A stretch of DNA of 64,000 bases from Benincasa hispida (taxonomy: Eukaryota; Streptophyta; Magnoliopsida; Cucurbitales; Cucurbitaceae), in the NCBI RefSeq assembly GCF_009727055.1, contig NC_052349.1:48342085-48406084 (forward strand). Reading direction: 5' to 3'. Positions 1 through 58,485 of the stretch are shown piece by piece. Made by a program: the position numbers and the translations under genes. Position 1 is the first letter of the stretch, and each line of letters begins with the position of its first letter. The notes beneath the pieces were generated by a model. The model worked only from the letters and a program-made list of their open reading frames with translations, was not told the origin of the DNA and searched no databases.

Positions 1-138
1 GGATGCATCACAGACTCCACTATGGAAGCCGAATACATAGTTACTTGTGAAGCTGCTACTGATTTGGAAGTTGTTCCAAATATGACTTTGCCCATCACAC
101 TTTATTGTGATAACAGTGGTGCTATGTTAAACTCTAAG
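1..138 (+). pseudogene. Copia retrotransposon RNase H domain, left half
   Basis: The open frame reads through the Ty1/Copia RNase H hallmarks MEAEY (around base 22) and YCDNSGA (around base 104). In the family this enzyme removes RNA from RNA/DNA hybrids during reverse transcription. About 11 codons usual between CEAAT and DLEV are missing, so this copy is already defective. The frame stays coherent up to AAC TCT AAG (130-138), then runs into unrelated organelle-type sequence. The next family codons resume at 8971. A second member of the family at 44690-44930 shows the same MEAEY and YDNSGA motifs. The element begins left of the window. Confidence 0.88.
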
Positions 139-414
139 GGGACTCTTCTAGTAGCGAAGGAAAAGGGCAGAGCTTTTTTCGTCGTAATCGTAATAGTGGG
201 CGGGTCTCATGAGATCTATGCCGACCGTTGGAATCAAATGAAGGTCGCATTAGATATAAATTGTCGAGCCCAACCAAAAAAGATGGGGCTCGGTATAGCC
301 ACAGTCCGGGCCCGGGGAGAATGGTGATGGAGATGTATTGCGGCCTTTTCTTGTTCAATCAACTCGAACCTCATTCTTCTGCAGTTTATGTTACGGATCA
401 GCCCCACTCTTCAG

Positions 415-469
415 GCCAGCTGCTTTGCTCAGCATCTTCTGCCGATTGTCAGCCTGTTCAGTTGACCCT
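415..469 (+). repeat. Inverted repeat arm, partner at 7864-7916
   Basis: The segment containing CAGCATCTTCTGCCGATT is found again in reverse complement at 7864-7916 with a few mismatches. Short dispersed repeats of this kind are common in plant mitochondrial DNA, and they support a mitochondrial source for the insertion. Confidence 0.75.
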
Positions 470-1422
470 TTTTTTCGCTTGTTCGTCAAGCTTTCGAGCA
501 ACTCTTTCAACTGCCGCCGGGTTGATATTGTATTGGGCAGGCTTGACTGTCATGGTATGCGTATTGGCTTCAAAACTAGACATAAGAGCCTACTGTGCAC
601 CTCCTCGATTCCGGTTCAAAGAACTCCGGATTGAAAAAGGGCGGATGCTATATCGCATTTGGCTTTGATTGACCCATGTTAAAAATTTGATAATCTCACC
701 AAATCTCTAATTTCTTTTTTTTTTTATATATATATTTAAAATCAATAATAATAAGATGAATGAGACTTTAGGTAACCCCAAAAGGTGGTAGGGTCTCAAT
801 GTACCATTTATATCTACACGGCTGCTTCGTTTTTTTTGGAACGCAAGCCCTCCTTACTTCAGTATGTCTTTTAGTATACTGGCCATCTTCTTCTTAATGG
901 CTGCCTGCCATCTTCCTTGTCGCCGTCCTTTGGCTTGGCTTATAAACTTTCAACGCCATCTTGTCTTTCTTTCTACCTTGTTCTTTGGATGCTTTCCCCG
1001 AATCGAGGTCTTAGCTACTCGTTTTCGAATGATCTTCTCCCGGTCTAATAGAGACTATTTTACCATCCAAATTGAGACTATCAAAAAGTGAAAAAAGTGG
1101 TGATTCAAACAAAGACTCTTTCTGGAAAGTGGTTACTATAACTTCATGAGCATACCTAGTATACGAGAAGGATGGAAATACCTGGTGAAATTGATTATCC
1201 AATTCTATTAAAGCAAAATTTAACAGTATATCTGTTATAAATTCAGAGGCTCCACGAAATTTGATTCGTGATTTTTCAGAATGGTTCGAAGAGAAAATGG
1301 ATTATGGGATTGTGTGACTTGAACTATTGATTGGGCCATGTAGATATATATATGTCTTTTTATCTGTCACATTGGGATTCATAACCAAATGTGTCTTTAT
1401 GTATTGAACTAACTTCGGGATT

Positions 1423-1535
1423 GGACACAGTATAAAAGATCTTTTAGAAGCACATATTCCGCTGGGGGGACGATTGGGGCGTGGACATAAAGGTCTTTAT
1501 GACACAATCAATAATTTGCTTCATTTTCAATTAGG
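1423..1535 (+). pseudogene. psaB: psaB (photosystem I P700 apoprotein A2) internal fragment
   Basis: The translated segment contains the photosystem I A2 stretches [26 protein letters not shown] and HFQLG in order, about 37 codons from the middle of a protein of roughly 734 residues. The usual second proline of IPPGG is leucine here, and NNSIH reads NNLLH. After FQLG the sequence diverges and hits a stop. It is a plastid gene scrap, most likely carried inside mitochondrial DNA before transfer to the nucleus. It lies upstream of the psaA piece at 2755, although in plastids psaA precedes psaB, so the two pieces are not one intact transfer. Confidence 0.9.
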
Positions 1536-2754
1536 TACCTGGATCAATTAGAGTTCACGCTGCCCGCCCTGAACAAATAGGAGGCGTGGGCCACAGGTCG
1601 CACGGTCGAGCTGCTTCGCCCCTCTCCCTATCAGTCGAGCTGCTTCGTGGACATATATGAAATGGAATAAAGATGGACCAAGCTACTTATGAATGTAACC
1701 ACAATTAACATCACTACGGTCGGGCTATCGCACACGGAGTCAGAAGTGAATTACGAGTTGGACCCTTTTGCGAATCGAGCGAGTCCGCTCTAGAAAGTCA
1801 CTGATAACTTCTTCTCGCAATGAGACAGAGTACACTGATATCGATGAGAGGTATAGAATTACAGACAGAGTGAGATGTAGAACTTGTACTAGATTGAAAG
1901 AATCAATGGCAATAGAATTCCTGCTCAGGTTAAATGTAACTCTAAGGCACTTGTTGATGCTCAACATGCTAATTCTAGCATCTTTTCATAGGTTTTTGCT
2001 GACTCTCTCCTCTAGTAAAAGAGTTTACCATCTGAACCTGGAGCTTTCTAAATTCCTTTCCTAAAGCTTTTGAAGAAAAAGCGAATCAGAGCCATGCGAG
2101 GGAGGACAGTGAGCACTATTATATAAATGAGGTAATAGAAGTCAGACTTCTCTGCAGGCCTCATATTAATCTTAGAAAAGAGATGCTTCTTTCTCATGTT
2201 CATTGACGGAAGTCTTTGGCTAACCATTTCTACTTCTCAAAAAAAGAATACCAAAATGATTCATAAGGTGCCCCTGGATTAGATCATAACTGCATTCTTA
2301 AGTCACTATAGATTTATTGGGAAGTGCATATGTTGTATACCCTTCTCTGCTACCAAATCATAGATCTTCCAGAGAAGACCAAAGCGAATGAGCTCACTCG
2401 ATTCGTGTCTGATCCTCCATTCTTTCTCATAGACTGATGCTGAAAATCTTTCTTAAGGAAAGAACATTTAGTAAGGACTGATAAAGCTAGAAGAGGTTTT
2501 TTATGCTATTTCAACATCCAACGAGATTGAAGAGTCCTTAATAGGGGACTATGTCAATACCCTTGAAAAGAAATTAAACACTAATTTAGCTGCTCTGTCT
2601 CTCGCTGTCTTAAGTTCAGTGTTGTGTTTTGGCTGGGCTCTCGCATGTCCAGGGTCCGTCCCGAGAGAGCGGAGCGTACCGCCCTGCCATAGTCGCGAGT
2701 CTGTTTATAGTCGCGGGTCTCTTTGTATGTGTTTTCCGGAAAGAGGAGGACTCA

Positions 2755-2928
2755 ATGATTATTCGTTCGCTGGAACCAGAAGTCAAAATTTTGGTAGATA
2801 GGGATCCCATAAAAACTTCTTTCAAGGAATGGGCCAGACCGGGTCATTTCTCGAGAACAATAGCTAAGGGTCCTGATACTACCACTTGGATCTGGAACCT
2901 TCATGCTGATGCTCACGATTTCGATAGT
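2755..2928 (+). pseudogene. psaA: psaA (photosystem I P700 apoprotein A1) 5' fragment
   Basis: The start ATG and the first 58 codons of photosystem I A1 are readable: MIIRS at the start, then [30 protein letters not shown] and HADAHDFDS. Roughly 60 bases before the ATG also look like the plastid psaA leader, including a GGAGGA ribosome-binding-like stretch eight bases or so before the start. After FDS the frame continues into unrelated codons and stops near 3004, so over 90% of the gene is absent. It cannot make a photosystem subunit and is a plastid-derived scrap inside the organelle insertion. Confidence 0.93.
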
Positions 2929-3330
2929 GGCATTGCCCATATATGTGAAACCCTGTCAAATGAACCATATCTCTACAAGTTCTATCTTCCTACAAGAAAG
3001 GAATGATTCTTCTTAGGCTGAAACCAGCTCAATCCAATCAGATCCCTCTTTCGAGGGACTTGTCTTGTACTCCATTAGGCAAAAAGTGCAGTCGAAGGCC
3101 CGTAATGAGATTTGATTTCGGAGATCGCGAGATTGGATTTCTTTTTCATAAAAAACGAAGCTTATTATTCTCTTCTTGCTTATCACCGACTTTCCGAGCT
3201 GACGCCCCTTGAATTCCAAACAATTGAAATTATGGAAATTTATGAAATATAGTGGGGCCCCCCTTATTTTGAGTGCCCTAGTAGTCGCGCTCTTACCCAG
3301 GTGCTGCATTGTTCGGAGGAGGTGATTTTG

Positions 3331-3407
3331 GTAAACCGATGAATGAGCTGAGGCTCCCATGTCTCGCCGATCCTTCGAAAAAGTCAGGTCATCAAACGAC
3401 TCATAGG
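3331..3407 (-). repeat. Inverted repeat arm with conserved reading frame, partner at 6301-6378
   Basis: The reverse complement of this 77-bp stretch resembles 6301-6378. In both copies the same frame is open and reads a related peptide with the core RRDMGASAH followed by SVY. The two copies differ at several residues. This may be a duplicated piece of an unrecognised mitochondrial ORF. Confidence 0.7.
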
Positions 3408-3821
3408 GAGTCAGAAGCAAGTGGAGTCAAAGGCGGGTCAAACTCACATAAGCGGAGGGGGAGACGGGTTAAATAACGAAAGAAAGATGGAACCAGATGC
3501 ATTCTTAAAAGAAAGCGCTTTGCCTTACCTATGATGCAAAATCAAATTGGATGATGCAAGCTGGAGAGGGTCCCCAGTGAATGTGAAATATAGGTTTCAG
3601 AAAAAGGAATCGAGGTTATGAGAGTAAGTGGAGTTGGGCGGGCTACTCTCCAGGGCCTCATTCATATCTCGAGGAGTGCGTTAGTTTTCGACTGAGGGAC
3701 AAGTCAGTGTACTTTAAGAAGCTGTTGAGTACCCGATGAGATAGATTGAAATGTATCTATTTTCGTCCCACACAGAGACAAAAGGCTGATCTTTGAATAG
3801 GAAAAAGAGTGGATCTGCAGG

Positions 3822-4059
3822 GAATTAGCTTATTCGAAAGGAAAGGTAACTGACTGCGTATCAGCTGTTCTATAACCATATTTGAGCCCAAAGAAGAAAA
3901 AGAACGAACTAAAGCGAGGAGCTGTCTCTTATACACATCTAGATGTGTATAAGAGACAGGAATTAGCTTATTCGAAAGGAAAGGTAACTGACTGCGTATC
4001 AGCTGTTCTATAACCATATTTGAGCCCAAAGAAGAAAAAGAACGAACTAAAGCGAGGAG
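3822..4059. other. Assembly artefact: Nextera mate-pair junction with duplicated 100-bp flanks
   Basis: Bases 3922-3940 are CTGTCTCTTATACACATCT, the 19-bp Tn5 mosaic end, followed directly by its reverse complement at 3941-3959. This is the circularisation junction adapter of Nextera mate-pair libraries, not plant DNA. The 100 bases on the left (3822-3921) are repeated on the right (3960-4059), as expected when an untrimmed mate-pair read fills a gap. The reverse-strand ORF crossing it (3757-4110) contains the tell-tale peptide SYTHLDVYKRQ and is false. Confidence 0.98.
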
Positions 4060-5548
4060 TTCATTGGCCATACATAGTGAAGGGGGATTTTCTCTTGCCT
4101 TTTCTGACATAATTCGGGGCTATCGGTTCTACGAAATTACGTGAGAGAAAGAACCTCTTGGTGGAGTCCCCCCGAGATTTCCGAGATGCTAGCACAATTG
4201 ACCTTGAGAGAGAAAGGGCTTGGCATTTCACTCTTTGTTGTGGGGTTGTCATGGATTGGCCGGCCATACGGATAAGGAAGTCCGAGGAGTTTCGTTCCCA
4301 TTGGAGATGCAAGTATTGTCGTAGCTGTTGTCGAGGGGAGATGCGAGCACTTTTGCCGAAGCAGGAGCGGGAGCAACTTCTAGAGCAAATTCTGATTAAA
4401 CTCGATCACTTGGCGAGGGGGTGTAGGAGGTCTTTTTGAGTGCATGTTTTTCATATCGATCAAGTGGGTTTCATTTCATTTTCAACATATAGTCCTACTC
4501 CAAAAGATCAGTAGTCGGGACCTGTTGCTTCCCTTCGAGTCGCTTCCTCAGATTTTGGATCCCTCTTTCAGGTTCGTCGATTTTTTCGACGTTTCTTATC
4601 CTGTTATGTTACTCTCGGGTTTGTCGGACCGCCTACCCTTGGTACTCGGGATACAGGAATATAACTCGGAATGGATAGTGGAAATTCTCTCTCGGGCTAG
4701 TTGTGATTGGTTGGATTCGTGTTTGGTAGTATGATCGATATGCCGATCATCCTCCTCTCTTACTGGGGTAAACAAACGCTTTCTAACAGCCTATTAGACC
4801 TAGCAAGGAAAGCTGGAGTAGAATAGAACGCCGAGGAGCTACCAGAGTAGGGGGTTTTAACTGCCCTGATAGACGAAAAGCCAATCATCTCTATGGTAGG
4901 GAAATGGACCAGGGTCCCGGAAGATTGCTTTAGTAGATTCGGGAGATATTGTGCTATAAGGGAAATGTGAGACTGATCTCAAGAAGGCAAAGAAAAAATG
5001 GGGCATTCGGATGCTTCCAAGATAGAAAAGATAGTGATAAAGGAATCAACAGTTGCTCCTGAACCCTTGAATTTGACATATAGGTTGTTCAATCAGTCAT
5101 TCCCTGCAACTTATCGTACTGATTCTCATTTCGGTGATTTCCAAAAAGTCTTTATTGCATTTTTAGAGCAAGAAGCAGAACTACAAGAAAAATGAAAATA
5201 TGTGCATCATTGCCTTAAAAACAAACGACCAGTTTCCCAGCCGAAAGAATGGGGAAACAAATGCGCTAAGACCTGTAGTAAGCCAGAGTAAGATGTATGA
5301 GGGTGCGAGTCACAAGAGTCTTCGAATGTCGAATTATAGAATCTCCGGGGCTTTCCTAACCACTCTCATTTTGTTTTTTTTATCTTCTTTGTCTGAAAAT
5401 GGGTTTGGAATATCAATGTAACATACTATTTGACTCTGTTTAACAGATATTCTTCTTTACAGGTACAATCAATACAATAGTGAGGGCGTAGGGCGATCGG
5501 ACCAGGCCAAGTCAGAAAGGCTTTAATGACTCAAGGTTCATATTAGGG

Positions 5549-5707
5549 AAGGGAGAGTGAGGGGAAGAGGGGGCTGCCCTCGGCCTGATCATCCTATTCG
5601 CTCCAACAGACAGGCATGGTTCTGTAGNAAGGGAGAGTGAGGGGAAGAGGGGGCTGCCCTCGGCCTGATCATCCTATTCGCTCCAACAGACAGGCATGGT
5701 TCTGTAG
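5549..5707. other. Assembly artefact: N-gap with duplicated 79-bp flanks
   Basis: A single N at 5628 separates two identical 79-bp copies (5549-5627 and 5629-5707). An exact duplication abutting a lone N indicates two overlapping contig ends that were joined without merging. The locus probably has one copy. Confidence 0.9.
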
Positions 5708-8700
5708 TCAAAGCAACTTTGTCACTATGGGCCAACCCTTTCTCTTGACATACCACAGGGCAGGGGTAGCGAAGCTAAGAAGGATAGAAGCCGGAGGCGA
5801 AGGAGGCATTTACGCTCACTAGACCGGAAGATTATTCCACTTCAACCAAGCTCCCACTACAGCACGGGGAATGAATAGCTCTTGCTACAAAACTAGCACC
5901 CTACTCTGTTACTGGTCCAAACATACAGCCTTCCTTATGGGGAGAGCTATAAAGAGAAGACCGTTTCGTGCTTTCCGTGCATTGGGGTACACCCATAGGT
6001 GGTGCACGCCATGTGATTGAAAAAATTCGAACATGTTCCACTTTTTCAAAAAAACAACCCGTGCTCATCCTTTTTCCAAATCTTTGGGGGCTATGGATTG
6101 GCTTTTGGCCCGGCCTTGCTCTTTTTAAAAGGCACCGATTCACGACCTTCAGACAGGATGCTCTAGTTGCTGCTGGTAGCTCTTAGCTGAATGCCTTGCT
6201 TCGCCCCACTAGCTGTAGGCAGGACCTAGGTGGACCAAAATTGAAAGATGTAATTGTTTTTTTTAGCACTGTTGATAGTTTTGTTTACAACACACATACC
6301 CCTATGAGCCGTTTGACGACCCAACTTTTTTGAAGGGTCGGCGGGATATGGGAGCCTCAGCTCATGCATCGGTTTACCGAAGCTGCCACAGGATTGTGAA
6401 AATCTACTGTGTGTAAAAGGACCAACGATGATTTATAGGGAATCTTTCGCCCGGGAAGGTGGATCAAAGAAAGGTAGCTTGCTTCTCTCCTGGACGGATG
6501 GCGGCAGCCGACTTCATTTCTTTTCTTTCCAAGCTGTTTGACCGAAAGAATAAAAGAAGTGCGTATGTTCAGAACACGAGAAAAAAAGAGATATCTAAAG
6601 CAGTTCCTCTTCCTGCTGCGCTTTATCGCCCGGTGATTCTCAAATATCGCAGAACAGAATTTGGTGACGAAAGGTATAACTTGTACAAATCTTTCCATTT
6701 TTCAATTCGATCCGATCCATTCGTTCGTCGAGCTATTTACTCGATCGTAGACAACCCGCTCAAAAGGCAAGGGGAATGAATTCGAGAACTTGATTGACAT
6801 TGAAAGATATGTGTACCAAACAAGCAATATGCCGATTGATGTACCAACCAAGCTAGCTCGACCGAGATATTTGATTGGACAGAAGAACAACGGATTGAAT
6901 AGGGCTCCGGCTTAGTTTCTTGTGTACCAGATAGAAGACAAGGACAAGATCCAAATCTTGTCCAAGCCCTGAAGGGGATCTTTCAGGTGGGCGGGGTTAT
7001 CGGTTTTGTTCTGTTCTCTCTCTCTACCTCTTCTTTTTTACTTAACTTAACAATCTTTTGAAGCCGAGCCTTTCCAGCAATGGGGCCTAGGGACCGATAT
7101 GATGATTGGTTTAGGTAGGGTGCCTTAACCTTTTCTGTCTGATGACTTGCTAAGAAAGTAAACTTGACCCCTAGCTACCTTTTACCTAGTGCTTAAACTC
7201 ACCGATACTGCTTTGAGAGACTGCAGGCTTAATCGAGACTGTTAAAAACTTCTCGGATTAAACAAAATCTATTTAGATCTCATTAGTCAAGGCACTGCCA
7301 GTACTTACTTTATTGACATTCTGTCTACATATGGCCCTTTTGTAGGTATGAGTTCAGATGGAGAAGATTCTGATACGAAAATCTCACCAATGGGGATTAG
7401 TCAGATTCGGCAGCTGAGGATCGCTTTGTGCTTGACTCCACTCACTACCTTTTAGCGTGAATGGATAAAGAAAGGCCCTAAAAAAATTATAGTATAGTAT
7501 GTTCCGCGGCTTCGGCAGCCCTGCTCCATTAGGTAGCCACACCGAGGGGGCTTTGTCCCTCTTTGCTACTCTAAGAAGCTAATTCTCAGATGTGACTCTT
7601 CCCGGCCTGGCCGCTTAGTCGCAGGAAGATTCCTTAACTGAGGTCGCGTCCTACCAGTTCGCTAAGTAGACTTACTCTACCGAGGGGCAACAAAGGCTGG
7701 AACTATTCCTGCCAAAAACATAGTGCGTGTTTGGTAAAAATAGAATGATCCCTTGGCTCGGGCAAGAAAAGGAAAAGGTTGTCGTACTCTTACCTTTTCC
7801 GTCGGACGATAGGAAAGTTTGAGCTGAAAGATTGAATCATACCGGGTGATTGGAATCCTCTGAGGTCAACTGAACAGGTTGATAATCGGCAGAAGATGCT
7901 GAGAAAAGCAACTGGCATTAAATACGTCGATAAGAAATCCGCGTAAGAGCCGGATTGCACTTCATAGATCATTAAATCCTCCAATATGAAGAGTAAATTG
8001 GAGGGGCTTACCCTCTGGTGAATGAACTCAAGCTTAAGTGTTACCGGTCTATGAACTGATACAGATTCATTGAAATAACATATATAGAATGAAGAACTAA
8101 TATCGAAGGAATGAGTCACAAACAATTGAAAAGAAATAGCAACTATTTAATTAACTATACCATTGAGGATTGGGGTTATTTACATCCGAAAGTTGAAATT
8201 GCTGTAAATACTGGTTAACTACATGATCGACCGTGTTTCCCATAAACTATTATGAGTTCGAGCTTGAGGACGAAGAGGATGAACATTTTCTTTTTTCTAT
8301 CCATTCAGAAGGATGCCTCTCTAACAACTATTCATCTGCAAAGATCTCGCCCAAATAGAGAAGTGAATATAAAGGCCAAAGAGTGATCTTTGAACGCTAC
8401 TACGCATCCTTTAAAAAGAGTCTCGTGTAAGGTAGGTTTGGGTATAACATTGGGCTTTTAACCTAATGATAAGAATGCCTCTGAGATTCAATCATAAACC
8501 ACTTTTCCTTGGTTGTATGTAAACTCCCCCCCCCCCCTTCACCCCCCACCGCTAGAGAGCGTATCGAGGATTTGGAGGGAGGGCTGCAAGTGCTGCGGGC
8601 GAAGCAGCAAGCACTCATAGTGTAGGCAGTCACCCACGGGCCTCGTCTCTTAGGGGTCGCGCCCTCTCTTCCTGATTGGACAAGTACGTAGAGATCTTCG

Positions 8701-8970
8701 TGGTACCGGGGAAGGAGTCTCAATCGATCTTTTCTAGGATTCCTTATCACGCCACGTGGACGATTTCCTTGGACCATGTAAGAATTCGTCGTCCGATTCA
8801 TCTTCTTGTTCCTGGATGCTTCATAGGAATCCATCGCTACCCCCCGCTGTCATCAGTGACTCATAGGTTTCCCTCAGCTCAGTCTTTTTGGTTCTTGAGA
8901 ATGGTCCACCTCTTCCAGGACCAATGCCTTTTTATAGTATTAGGGCATTCCACATATGCTTTATAAAGCC

Positions 8971-9180
8971 AAAGATGCTAGGAGTCATCAAAGAGCAAAC
9001 AATTGAATGGAAATATCATTGATTTGGGAGATTTGCATCGAGGTGACGTGACTGTCATGAGAATGCTTTGGAGCACAACGTTGCTAATCCATTTACAAAG
9101 GCTTTCACAAATAAAGTGTTCAAGGGTCATCTTCAAAGTCTAGGTCTACGCGATATGCGACATATTGTCCACGGCAAGTG
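8971..9180 (+). pseudogene. Copia retrotransposon RNase H domain, right half
   Basis: The codons following the break at 138 resume here: AAA GAT GCT AGG AGT CAT corresponds to the family's K-E-P-R-S-H, then EHNVANPFTKAF and KVFKGHLQSLGLRDM near the normal C-terminus. Two small deletions shift the frame between about 9015 and 9070 and there are in-frame stops, so it is dead. Together with 1-138 it is a single RNase H domain split by the organelle insertion. The element's polypurine tract and 3' LTR are not visible. The Gypsy LTR begins about 20 bases further on. Confidence 0.88.
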
Positions 9181-9201
9181 GGAGATGTTACTGGGGTATA
9201 G

Positions 9202-11371
9202 TGTAACATCCCAAAATTTTGTTCTTAATGTAATTTCAGTATTTGTAATATTCAAGATCATTTTTTAATTTTGGAAATTTAATTGGATTACTGAGATTTA
9301 ATTGGAAATTATGCCACCCAATCTTAATTTTTAAATCAATGTCGAGAATATAATTCAATTTTGGAGGGAAGGGTTGGTTTTGAGATTTGTGGGAGGAAAG
9401 GATTTAACAATGCAAAATAAGATATGATAGATAAAATAAAAAATAAAATTTATATTTAATATTATATTATATTTTATCTTTTCTTTTTTTTCCTTTTTCT
9501 TCTCAGTTCCCCCCCCCCCCCCCCCACACAACACAGAGACTCAAGCCTCCCTCTCTGAAACCCACGCGATCGAGACCCCAGAACTCCCACCATTTTCCCT
9601 TGCTGTCGTATGCCCTAGTAGTACCACCACTCACCAGCCGAACCGCTTGCCTTACCCTGTGTCCGTGTCAATCAAGTTCGTTGTCTAGAATCTGTCACCA
9701 TTCGGGTTTCGTCTGGTGCCGTCCAACCCAGTCGTTGTTCGCCAACTGTCCATCGACGCCTCTGTGGATGCCAACGAACGTTGCCTAGTCGACGTTATTT
9801 GTTTTGTCACCAGATCTATTTTTGGGTAAGATCTTGGTGGGTTTTATGAATTTTCTTGAATGGATCTTGATTACCCATTTGATTTTGGGTTAATTTTGAT
9901 AAAATCCATTATGTGTGGGCCATAGATTCGAGTTTTAGCGGAGTTTGAAGATGAAAAACGTGTTGTGCAGTGTTACAAAGGTTTGATTTTGGGAAGTTTT
10001 GGTACCTTTGGCCCTTTTGGATTTAGGGTAATTGTTGAAAATTTAGTTATTAATTATTGGTTTTTATTTATGTTCAGATTGGACACGGACACATAAATTG
10101 AACTTTGGAACTGACTTCGAACCAAGCCACAACTTTGTTAAGCGTAATTTGGGGACCTTTGGTAATTTGCTTAAATTCAATTAGACCCCAATGAATAAGT
10201 TGAAAGCATTGGATTTATTGTTTTTGGCCAGGGGTGCTAAATTAAGGATTGTAATTTATGTTATAGGAGGTATTCTGGTCTTCCAAAAGTGCTAAAGGAT
10301 TCACTGCTTGGATTAATTTTGGGAATATCGATTTGAGGTAAGTAATGTTACTACTAGAATTGCCCATGTGCCAGGCAATATAGTTATGATTTATTGAGAA
10401 TTTTTGTTGACTAGATGTTCATATATGCCTTCTATGTTATGAGGATTTATTAGACTAGATGTACATAAAGATATTTGAGTGCTAGCATGATTTGATATAT
10501 TATTATTCTATGAGATTCTATTTGATATGAGGATGATGATATGTATGTTTATGTTATAGAGCCATGTTATGATACCTTTGATGTTGCAATAGTAATAGCG
10601 TCCTCACTGTTAGTTAAATACCCACTAAAGGTTGTGTTTCCTTCGAAATTCACTAGAGGTGGTGGTTTCCTTTGGGATCCACCAGAGGTTGTGTTTTCTT
10701 TTGGATTCACTAGAGGTAGTACTTTCCTTCGGGATTCTCCAGAGGTTGTGTTTTCTTCAGGATTCACTAGAGGTGGTATCTCCTTCGGGGTTCACTAGAG
10801 GTTGTGGGTCCTATGGGACTTACTAGAGGTACTGGGTATACTTAACTATAGTAGGATGAAATTAAGATATTAATGTATATATGTGTTCCATGAGGACTAG
10901 GGGCGTGCTTACGTCCCACTAAAGATAGGTGTCTAGAGGACATAGATGCCTATCCTGACCCCAGTAGTGGGGGTTGCTTACTGAGTATTTTATACTCACC
11001 ATTTTTCATGTGGATGTTTCAGGTAAGGGTGGGGACGTGCCGACTAATGACAAGAGGAATCCATGACGAGCCACTAGGGACCAGTTTTGTGCTTTCGCTC
11101 ACGATATTTAGATTTCTTTTCATGTTTTTCAGTTTTCAGTTTTGATGTTTGAAGCTTACTGTTAAGATTTGTTTTCAAACTTATTTATTATCATCTATGA
11201 TTTATGGGTACCTTATCATTTGATTTTAATATTTGAATTTAATGGAGGTATTTTAAATTTACCTTATTTATTTAGCATTTATTTCACTATAAAAAGGTGT
11301 CATTTTAAGTTCCATCCATGCATATGTTTTGTAACGGCCTAGCCTTAGTCCTAGGGGGTCGGGTCGTTACA
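9202..11371 (+). mobile_element. Gypsy-A 5' LTR (Ty3/Gypsy)
   Basis: A 2170-bp LTR bounded by perfect 6-bp inverted termini, TGTAAC at 9202 and GTTACA ending at 11371, followed at once by a primer-binding site. It contains a C-homopolymer (about 9508-9525), a minisatellite (10622-10835) and no convincing protein-coding capacity. The matching 3' LTR is not in the window. The internal region continues through gag (11590-11804, 18463-19200), protease, RT (19770-20401, 38053 on), RNase H and the start of integrase, ending at about 39216. Confidence 0.9.
10622..10835 (+). repeat. Minisatellite in the Gypsy-A LTR, about 28-29 bp x 7
   Basis: Seven to eight imperfect units each contain CACTAGAGGT or CACCAGAGGT followed by a T-rich stretch and TTCGGGATT-like ends. 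The unit is 28-29 bp, so frames drift and the ORF at 10541-10798 is just the translated repeat. The U3/R position of this array within the LTR is not known. Confidence 0.88.
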
Positions 11372-16909: not shown

Positions 16910-17480
16910 AGCATTGACAACTATCTTATAGTTTTTGCCTGATCGTGTAATGCCATCGTATAACGCTTGACCAAACTTCACGATTATGTAGTGTCTTCCT
17001 TCTATCATATAGTGCCATCGTCTAATACTGGACAATGCTGCACGATCACTTAACACTATCGTGCAGCACCATTGTCTAGCGCCGGACAAATACTACACGA
17101 TTGCTTAGCGCCATCGTATAGCGCCACTTCTTGATCGTTTAACGCATGCACAAAGGTAGACGATCGTGTAGTGCTATCACATAGCACCTCTTCACATCGT
17201 TGTGCAAATCTACACGATCGTGTAGTGCCATCATATAGCACTTCAACGCATCATTTAGCTCCCACACAAAGCTACACGAGCACTTCAACGCATCATTTAG
17301 CTCCCACACAAAGCTACACGACCTGTCTCTTATACACATCTAGATGTGTATAAGAGACAGATCGTGTAGTGCTATCACATAGCACCTCTTCACATCGTTG
17401 TGCAAATCTACACGATCGTGTAGTGCCATTGTATAGCACTTCAACGCATCATTTAGCTCTCGAAGGTACACGATCGTCCA
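16910..17480 (-). repeat. CGATCG-type motif array in the Copia-2 leader
   Basis: Degenerate units around ACGATCGTGTAGTGCCATCG recur roughly every 30-60 bases, each containing the palindrome CGATCG or a decayed version. The array includes an exact 42-bp tandem duplication at 17238-17279/17280-17321 next to an adapter artefact. Similar arrays occur at 34080-34260, 39900-40440 and 48003-48170, all in Copia leaders or LTRs. Confidence 0.75.
17163..17429. other. Assembly artefact: Nextera junction in Copia-2 leader with duplicated flanks
   Basis: The 38-bp mosaic-end dimer lies at 17323-17360. The 69 bases after it (17361-17429) closely repeat 17163-17231, and a 42-bp unit is duplicated just before it. 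The peptide MCIRDR in the reverse frame is the translated adapter. The true sequence is likely shorter here. Confidence 0.96.
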
Positions 17481-28049: not shown

Positions 28050-28720
28050 TGGTGATAGAAAAGGTCACCTCAAAATGATGGCACATCTTTGTCGGCCTCG
28101 TAGTCTAAAATGATGAAGTCAGCTGGCAAAATAAATTTATCAATCGTGATTAGCACATCTTTCACCTTACCTTCTGGATGAACCAGAGATCTGTCAGCCA
28201 ATTGAAGAGTCACTGATGTGGGAACAAGTTGCCCACATTTAATTGTCTAAAAATTGACAGCAGCATCAAATTTATGCTGGCCCCCAAGTCACACAAGGCT
28301 TGCCCAATATAGAGTCCTCCTATGGAGCTGTCTCTTATACACATCTAGATGTGTATAAGAGACAGGTCTCCTTCTTTGTTGGCTTTGAGGTCAACGCAAC
28401 CTCTGGTTCTACTGCTTCATTTTCTCTTTCTTCTTCTTGCATTACCGCAATCTCAGGTTCAGCTACAATGGAAGTTGTTCTACNNNNNNNNNNNNAAAAT
28501 TGACAGCAGCATCAAATTTATGCTGGCCCTCAAGTCACACAAGGCTTGCCCAATATAGAGTCCTCCTATGGAGCAAAGAATAGTAAAGCTCCCAGGATCG
28601 ATCATCTTCCGTGGGATTATGGATTTGGAACTTTGCGTTAATTCCACCGTGGCAAATTTTCCAGCTCCCCTCTTCTTAGTTACCATGTCCTTCAGAAACT
28701 TGCCGTAGGCAGACATTTCC
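28050..28720 (-). pseudogene. Athila-2 aspartic protease region
   Basis: The frame at 28480-28720 reads DPGSFTILCSIG, IGQALCDLRASINLMLLS. The usual active-site string is DLGAS; here the glycine is arginine, which would probably disable the protease. A near-identical copy of part of this stretch lies at 28251-28327 because of the mis-assembly described at 28251-28980, so the protease region is duplicated artificially. Confidence 0.8.
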
Positions 28721-28980
28721 TCAATCGCTTCACTGAAAGGAATGTTAACATGTAATTGTTTTACATAGATAAAAAGCATTAGTACTGTACCTCTTCGTTT
28801 TTCTTCTTCCTTAGTCTCTGAGGGAAAGGTGGAAATTGAACTTTCATGGTTCCCGTTTCATTAGGTTTTGGGGTCAACGCAACCTCTGGTTCTACTGCTT
28901 CATTTTCTCTTTCTTCTTCTTGCATTACCGCAATCTCAGGTTCAGCTACAATGGAAGTTGTTCTACTATGCTCCTTCTTT
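28251..28980. other. Assembly artefact: Nextera junction, 12-N gap and crossed duplications
   Basis: A 38-bp mosaic-end dimer lies at 28328-28365 and twelve Ns at 28484-28495. The bases before the adapter (28251-28327) reappear at 28497-28573, and the bases after it (about 28387-28483) reappear at about 28870-28970. This is a mate-pair read placed across a gap: each half duplicates true sequence further right. Only one copy of each probably exists. Confidence 0.97.
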
Positions 28981-56899: not shown

Positions 56900-58485
56900 G
56901 TTCTTTTCAAAATAATAATAACAATAATAACAAGAATAATGATAATAAAGCTATTGAAAACTAACCTTTTGGAGTTTCTTCTTGGTTGAATATGAATCAC
57001 CTGAGTCATATGTGCTTGAACCATGTGAAGAGGTACGAAGTTTCTTAAGCATCTTTTTCACAAAGCTTAGTGCAGATTTATTTGAATGCTTGACTAACAC
57101 CTCCTTTTTCTCAAAGTTCAGTTTGGAACTCTCATTTGCTGTTATAGTCCCTTGGAACAACTCTGAAGATGAAGGTTTTTCCTTCCTCATATCTATCATC
57201 TTGTCCGGAAGTTCAATTGTAGATCCAAATAGATATCCCTGAAGTGGACATGTTAGAGTCTTCCCATCATTTTCATCTTCGGTTACTTCTGTATGCTTGC
57301 CTGCAAGTGTGATAATACTAGCATGGCTTGTCCTCCCAGGTGATTGATCACAACAGTCTTCCTTAGTTTCAGATTCAAGAAATTTTTCCAACTCATAATT
57401 TATCAGTTTTAGGTCATCCTCTGTCACCTCATCTGGCAACTCAATCATGTTTTCAAAAGCCAAGGAGAATGTTGGTGTTGCAGGTTCAGAACCCAGAGTT
57501 CCAATAGTGAGGAACCCATGGAAAATATCAGATGAATTAGATAAGTCCCCACATTTTTCCAATATATTGTTGGCTTCAACTCCAAAAGATGATTGTTCAT
57601 AATCCTGACTATGGGGCTGCACGGTTCTGCAACCGAAACCTGGCTTCAAATAGATGTCTTCATCATCAACTGGTGTTTGTAATGACAGGCACATGCATGG
57701 GTTTGCTGAAACCAAAGAAAAAAAGAGTTCAACATTTCTGGAGTCAACCATGATTTCTTTTAATAAAATAGAAACAAAATCCCCTTTTGTTCATTAGTGA
57801 GACAGCGTAACTTGAATGTCCTTTTCTTATTTCCCTTCTACTTCTGGCAAGAGTACACAGTGGACCAATCTAAAAGTAATGTTACTCGGAAGTTTCAACA
57901 GTAGAGAAAGAGGCTTGAGAGTGAGAGGTTCCTACAGGTTCCCAGGTGGCCCCAACTTCTGAGAGAATGAAACCGTAATGTTTCTTTGAAACATCATGTT
58001 TGGCCATACTTCAGGCTTCAGCTAGACTGATTACCACGGTACGAAATGTTGAGAAATTGCAAGATTATATAGTCATGATGTTGTGAGGGTAACCTTTGAG
58101 GTTTTACATTTCTAACTTTGTTCTTGTAACCGTTCTTGTTCCCTAATTTAAGAAGTTTTCAACTAGTATACAACAAATCTTGGTATACACCAACCGGAAA
58201 AATCCCGACAGCAGAACTTGAATTGTACATCTTAATCATCATGGATGTACTATGTATGATCTGCTCATTTTTCTTGTTAAGATATGAATTATGATCAGAA
58301 ATAAAAGTGTGAGGGAAAGAGGTTGTTAAAATACCAATTGTGAAATCCTTGACCGACTCGATTCCACTTTGCCAAAATTTGTTGTGCATCCATCCTAATA
58401 ACTGCAGGAATGAAAGGCAACATTAATGGATGGGATGTTAAAGGGTATAAATCTTGAAGTGTATAGACTCTTCACTTACCTTCAT
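55686..58485 (-). CDS. LAZY1: LAZY1-like protein (IGT family), gravitropism and branch-angle regulator
   Basis: Coding exons on the minus strand are 58485-58480 (ATGAAG), 58401-58335, 57705-56966, 56412-56139 and 55705-55686, each joined by GT/AG introns in consistent phase. They give 1107 bases, 368 residues plus stop; Arabidopsis LAZY1 is about 358 from memory. Features in order: N-terminal MKLLGWMHNKFWQ; IGT signature GFLTIGTLGSEP; acidic EDDLKLINYELEKFLESE; a basic, serine-rich stretch with SFVKKMLKKLR; FHRKIHPE; ITYCQEFISKEEMCYWKT; GHWIKTDAEYLVLEL at the C-terminus, with an EAR-like tail. In the family these proteins act downstream of gravity sensing, affect auxin distribution and set shoot or branch angle; LAZY1 has been reported at the plasma membrane and in the nucleus. 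The final exon of 20 bases and the 6-base first exon are easily missed by gene finders. No disabling change is seen. LAZY1 rather than another LAZY/TAC member is inferred from the C-terminal region. Confidence 0.92.
56856..56950. repeat. ATA trinucleotide microsatellite in intron 3 of the LAZY1-like gene
   Basis: An uninterrupted run of about ten TAA/ATA units (56869-56898) is followed, after a short break, by a second interrupted run (56911-56948). It lies just 3' of the exon 3 donor in transcript order and is probably length-variable among cultivars. Confidence 0.9.

Follow-up and report, generated by a model that had tools for sequence, protein, structure and literature searches.

Patchwork DNA of mitochondrial and plastid type within an aged Copia element of wax gourd, a probable mosaic organelle insertion

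We analysed a 64,000-nt stretch of the genome of wax gourd (Benincasa hispida; C1:48342085–48406084), referred to below as the window, in which the RNase H domain of a Copia retrotransposon is divided by scrambled organelle DNA. This insert, of about 8.6 kb, is probably a mosaic organelle insertion, or 'numin', that end-joining captured where an old Copia copy had broken. A break would have occurred in the RNase H region of this cucurbit element, and end-joining would have sealed it, presumably in one event, with several dozen concatenated short pieces (mostly of 80–300 bp) from mitochondrial and plastid DNA, leaving joints that share 0–3 nt inside the insert and overlap by 2–3 nt at Copia; the mosaic would afterwards have drifted as nuclear DNA. 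The joints thus show the end-joining pattern that excerpts of PMC6215612 report for numins. Features of the region are listed in Table 1, and L-numbers denote loci fetched from the same genome.

The RNase H domain itself comprises positions 1–138 and 8971–9187. The translation of 1–138 ends with ...LYCDNSGAMLNSK, and that from 8971 reads KDARSHQRAN and, after 1-nt losses, continues to LGLRDMRHIVHGKW, while in homologues the same stretch is unbroken (NSGAVANSK followed directly by EPRSHKRGKHIER). With E ≤ 0.001, 179 homologous proteins were found, the best named match being gag/pol of Cucumis melo (1.6e-12); the region is thus homologous to Copia gag/pol, and the cucurbit source proposed in an earlier note on this DNA is supported. 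Both halves were matched in 114 of the 120 homologues listed: the right half projects 0–1.7 codons after the left in 63 of these 114, and the right-hand matches are only short or displaced in the remaining 51.

The site was also compared at the DNA level with seven copies of the Copia family, fetched with their flanks. The end of the left half and the start of the right half overlap by 3 nt on four copies (L009, L013, L014 and L015) and by about 2 nt on L012; the right half aligns on L011 only from its base 51 onward, and it has no match on L010 because other sequence interrupts that copy. Uninterrupted family DNA reads TCTAAGGAACCTAGGAGTC, and the window has TCTAAG, the insert and then AAAGATGCTAGGAGTC, which gives Copia joints with a 2–3 nt overlap, two bases being identical. 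Since the two halves are adjacent in the family copies and in the homologues, we take 139–8970 to be an insertion that cost no Copia base, its break point being fixed by these alignments within about 3 bases. The earlier claims that the Copia halves are consecutive at a clean site and that the insertion is younger than the element, whose RNase H domain is contiguous in relatives, are both upheld.

The upstream remainder of the Copia copy lies in the 10 kb preceding the window (L016, C1:48332085–48342084), with an LTR (long terminal repeat)-like stretch from L016:3106, and runs to window base 1. Most of its pieces are 74–86% identical to the fetched relatives, with small frame-shifting losses, and about ten codons are missing at a gap; the copy is old and decayed. 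Dating by an LTR pair was rejected, since no same-orientation 3' LTR belonging to this copy was detected beside 9205. An LTR-like stretch at 9202–11371 (TGTAACATCCC to GTTACA, then TTGGTATCAGAGCC), judged by eye, truncates the copy at about 9205. The family is abundant, with 3,819 first-look candidates in the genome, of which the best 40 were scored. The idea that organelle DNA favours Copia was considered and rejected, since the family is this abundant and is present at only two of the 19 loci L019–L037, namely L024, where an organelle block lies inside a family copy, and L023, where the family is about 1.1 kb away. The L024 insertion (C9:43794195–43794395) is of mitochondrial type and about 210 bp long, interrupts RNase H in a further member of this Copia family with a few-base overlap at the site, and consists of the same block as window 2054–2254, reversed.

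Table 1. Coordinates of the Copia host, the organelle-derived insert, its gene pieces and its assembly artefacts in the window
Feature	Position	Strand	Evidence or remark
Copia RNase H domain, left part	1..138	+	179 homologous proteins and upstream continuity
Mosaic insert, organelle-derived	139..8970	.	43 blocks matched elsewhere in genome; 24 stretches unmatched
Plastid psaB piece, residues 290-336, one stop codon	1399..1539	+	E 6.3e-24 vs solved PsaB
Mitochondrial nad5 piece, residues 78-105	1646..1735	-	E 3.8e-8 vs plant Nad5
Plastid psaA piece: 5' spacer plus initial ~58 codons	2713..2927	+	E 1.6e-38, both PSI stretches of frame jointly
38-nt palindrome, equal to adapter, between exact 101-nt copies	3922..3959	.	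Assembly artefact
Two exact 79-nt copies around single N (5628)	5549..5707	.	Unmerged contig overlap
Mitochondrial-type rpl2 scrap	~6447..6506	+	E 2.1e-5 to uL2m
Plastid ycf2 piece, residues 1118-1150	6654..6752	+	E 6.4e-11 to Ycf2; Pfam Ycf2 6.2e-10
Copia RNase H right part and following stretch to LTR-like start	8971..9205	+	Alignments to family copies

Six-frame searches of the insert identified scraps of psaA, psaB, ycf2, nad5 and rpl2, all with abrupt ends, in agreement with the organelle origin claimed earlier. The nad5 piece is certainly mitochondrial and the psaA, psaB and ycf2 pieces are certainly of plastid type, whether they came directly from the plastid or via mitochondria. Matches elsewhere in the genome delimit the psaB DNA block at 1398–1536. 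The coding part of psaA, at 2755–2928, runs from the first residue to about residue 58, and psaA DNA at other loci runs on past the equivalent of window position 2927. At a position where Nad5 chains of plants read S-L, the piece in the insert reads S-P; plant mitochondrial RNA undergoes C-to-U editing, which would explain the difference if DNA, and not edited RNA, had moved. No PDB match was obtained for three of the six frames, and no intron or tRNA remnant was detected in the insert by Rfam or ARAGORN. A plasmid search with 139–8130 matched the adapter alone, and viral contigs gave no match to a 27-mer taken from the insert. Two open reading frames (ORFs) of the insert were considered as ORFs common to other plants and rejected: the fused part of the psaA fusion ORF is absent from 13 aligned psaA hits (120 homologues listed, 240 found), and the fused part of the rpl2–ycf2 ORF is covered by none of its 8 hits (25–37% of the query).

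The arrangement of the pieces was deduced from matches elsewhere in the same genome. Searches with 139–3000, 3000–5627 and 5708–8970, for each of which the best 40 candidates were scored (of 277, 1,264 and 293, respectively), returned 45, 47 and 47 matches, self included. After 3 self matches, 1 in-window duplicate and 4 adapter matches were dropped, 131 remained, and 8 from fetched loci brought the number to 139, one of them a place already counted. They form 43 blocks, 27–299 bp long with a median of 130 bp, which together account for 5,988 of the 8,832 nt. The blocks abut end to end without interrupting one another, and at the 20 touching pairs not one of the 139 matches crosses the joint with at least 15 bp on each side. 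Two or more separate matches were present at 14 of the 54 loci examined; in L052, L055 and L064 both fall in one block, and the remaining eleven loci, representing ten places (L046 is the same as L061), unite blocks that are far apart in the insert. In each of two inverted repeats within the insert, the pieces derive from the same source region and overlap (L041 and L074). The single NUMT (nuclear mitochondrial DNA segment) of the earlier note must therefore give way to several dozen scrambled mitochondrial and plastid pieces. Dispersed modules with fixed ends were rejected as a source of the blocks, since other loci run into organelle sequence beyond the block; the shared block ends are accordingly the window's own. 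Two of the other loci are themselves mosaic-like, L073 (around C7:42599169) having four and L074 (around C1468:456050) three separate short blocks of the window insert.

Nine inner joints could be read from both sides, and they share 2, 2, 3, 2, 0, 0, 1, 1 and 2 bases, joint 3834/3835 being one without a shared base. The chance of at least 2 shared bases at a blunt joint is about 0.16 each, and the 2–3 nt shared at five of the nine joints correspond to a P of about 0.007 versus blunt joining. At the other 11 touching joints the overlaps of BLAST ends range from -2 to 10, a range taken from match ends and not base by base. The pieces are thus directly joined, blunt or with microhomology, at the 20 touching joints, with 0–3 nt at those that are readable.

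Drift was assessed on four of the 43 blocks against the majority of the other copies (8, 5, 3 and 2 loci). Differences were found at 18 of 877 sites, a rough figure since at least one psaA difference may represent an older plastid state (partial protein P0005 carries the window's residue). Twelve of the differences are C>T or G>A and none is a gap, as expected for aged nuclear DNA. If plant DNA changes at about 7e-9 substitutions per site and year, a divergence of 2% corresponds roughly to around three million years. Wrongly scaffolded fresh organelle reads should not show such drift.

The assembly is almost certainly that of B. hispida B227, which according to parts of PMC6856369 was built from Illumina contigs by ALLPATHS-LG, mate-pair scaffolds, PBJelly gap filling with PacBio reads and genetic-map anchoring, and for which parts of PMC9905507 give a contig N50 of 68.5 kb and about 15-fold PacBio coverage. 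Artefacts inside the insert had been suspected in the earlier note, and two were identified, each with a duplication. The 38-nt palindrome, which equals the Nextera mate-pair junction adapter, lies between 101-nt copies at 3821–3921 and 3959–4059 (138 nt for duplication and adapter), and the N lies between 79-nt copies at 5549–5627 and 5629–5707 (80 nt for duplication and N). Since these two duplications leave a true length of about 8.6 kb, the 8.8 kb given earlier is too long, though its coordinates (139–8970) stand. Both artefacts duplicate local sequence and leave its order unchanged, and the Copia joints are free of N and adapter. The 38-nt adapter sequence is printed in an excerpt of PMC7357533, and the 38-mer is also present in 7 viral-contig stretches and 5 plasmid records (matches of 39–42 nt), which fits library residue. 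Further adapter copies, full or nearly full, occur at 17323–17360 and 28328–28365 of the window, and others at L031:1745–1782, L043:2492–2527, C11:74059120 and C11:20408372. Single Ns are present at L015:2570 and at L036:1500, the latter flanked by psaA-block copies that overlap, an unmerged overlap like that at 5628. Near the third adapter of the window, a 103-bp duplication (28381–28483 and 28864–28966, 98%) around a 12-N gap is probably another assembly artefact. That library adapters and unmerged duplications persist inside organelle-derived DNA of this assembly should be taken as a warning.

Such errors raise the question of a chimera, in which mate-pair scaffolding and gap filling misplaced organelle or NUMT contigs between Copia contigs and the plant's own Copia copy is uninterrupted. 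The adapter and the N with their duplications, the contig N50, the low PacBio coverage and the adapters at other organelle-derived loci (L031 and L043) are all consistent with this. However, a misjoin would have had to hit the same site twice, as both Copia halves reach it within 3 nt without N or adapter, and neither the drift of about 2% from other copies nor the bases shared at the patchwork joints is expected of it; we therefore regard a chimera as improbable. A simple NUMT would require that the mitochondrial genome already had this order, plastid pieces included, and that one 8.6-kb copy passed to the nucleus. Plant mitochondrial genomes contain plastid pieces, and every gene recognised in the insert is organellar, but longer NUMTs of the same order should then give matches across the joints, which none of the 139 does, and the pieces have different neighbours at other loci. 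Judged without an organelle genome, the insert is not collinear with one mitochondrial stretch, and this explanation is very improbable. Growth of the insert by repeated insertions, or its assembly from older nuclear NUMTs, appears rather unlikely. It would account for the divergence of the overlapping piece pairs (see below), and L073 and L074 also look like mosaics; on the other hand, the blocks abut and none interrupts another, and the rice comparison, as given in excerpts of PMC6215612, saw no recurrent insertions.

Several points weigh against the proposed capture of a mosaic by end-joining. The overlapping piece pairs differ by 10–12% (88% and 90% complementary), above the expectation for two copies at about 2% each, and four of the nine readable joints share only 0–1 nt. 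Among the best 40 candidates scored per search, 24 stretches totalling 2,844 nt had no match, including both ends that adjoin Copia (139–316 and 8704–8970), the nad5 scrap, the greater part of the rpl2 scrap and one stretch for which a match was obtained later (2339–2464). Because the block boundaries were drawn manually from these very matches, the absence of crossings at the 20 joints is partly circular; independently of these boundaries, other loci extend beyond the block ends into sequence that the insert lacks. The two artefacts inside the insert are proven assembly errors. The assembly places the insert inside Copia sequence of a 96-Mb contig, a putatively nuclear location, and the evidence for the physical reality of the outer junctions is this single assembly of short reads and low-coverage PacBio data.

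Numins, as described in excerpts of PMC6215612, are nuclear loci where mitochondrial and plastid pieces adjoin one another through blunt or microhomology joints, as the pieces of the insert do; those cited span 3–92 kb with up to 100 segments, and earlier mosaic cases are attributed there to Noutsos et al. 2005. Compared with one example given in the same excerpts (4 pieces in 3.6 kb), the pieces here are short and dense. Published medians for NUPTs (nuclear plastid DNA segments) are 175–514 bp in the parts of PMC3989485 concerned. Simple NUMTs and NUPTs likewise represent organelle DNA at a nuclear break, L024 being a clean case, whereas the present insert contains dozens of pieces from both organelles. 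The host shares the homology of its RNase H region with Copia LTR retrotransposons such as that of C. melo, but this copy is decayed and interrupted and provides only the site. The kind of event is already known, and by these comparisons the insert would be a further numin. A literature search for NUMTs together with organelle DNA and the wax gourd nuclear genome found no paper. Elsewhere in the window, an open frame of 279 aa that lies clear of the repeats (56951–57790, minus strand) resembles a LAZY-type plant gene and may be one.

What sets the insert apart from the cited numins is its host, a repeat with many intact relatives, which supply the empty site and make the outer joints of a mosaic insertion unusually readable; the numin survey, in the excerpts of PMC6215612, analysed inner joints only. 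It is possible, though doubtful, that capture of organelle DNA by wax gourd nuclei has been recurrent, the DNA having first been cut to about 100–300 bp and chained, as in the window, L073 and L074. If so, the narrow piece size would reflect one degradation route, e.g. the breakdown of dying organelles by nucleases, and outer repair joints could be read genome-wide from the dated empty sites that the many Copia relatives would offer.

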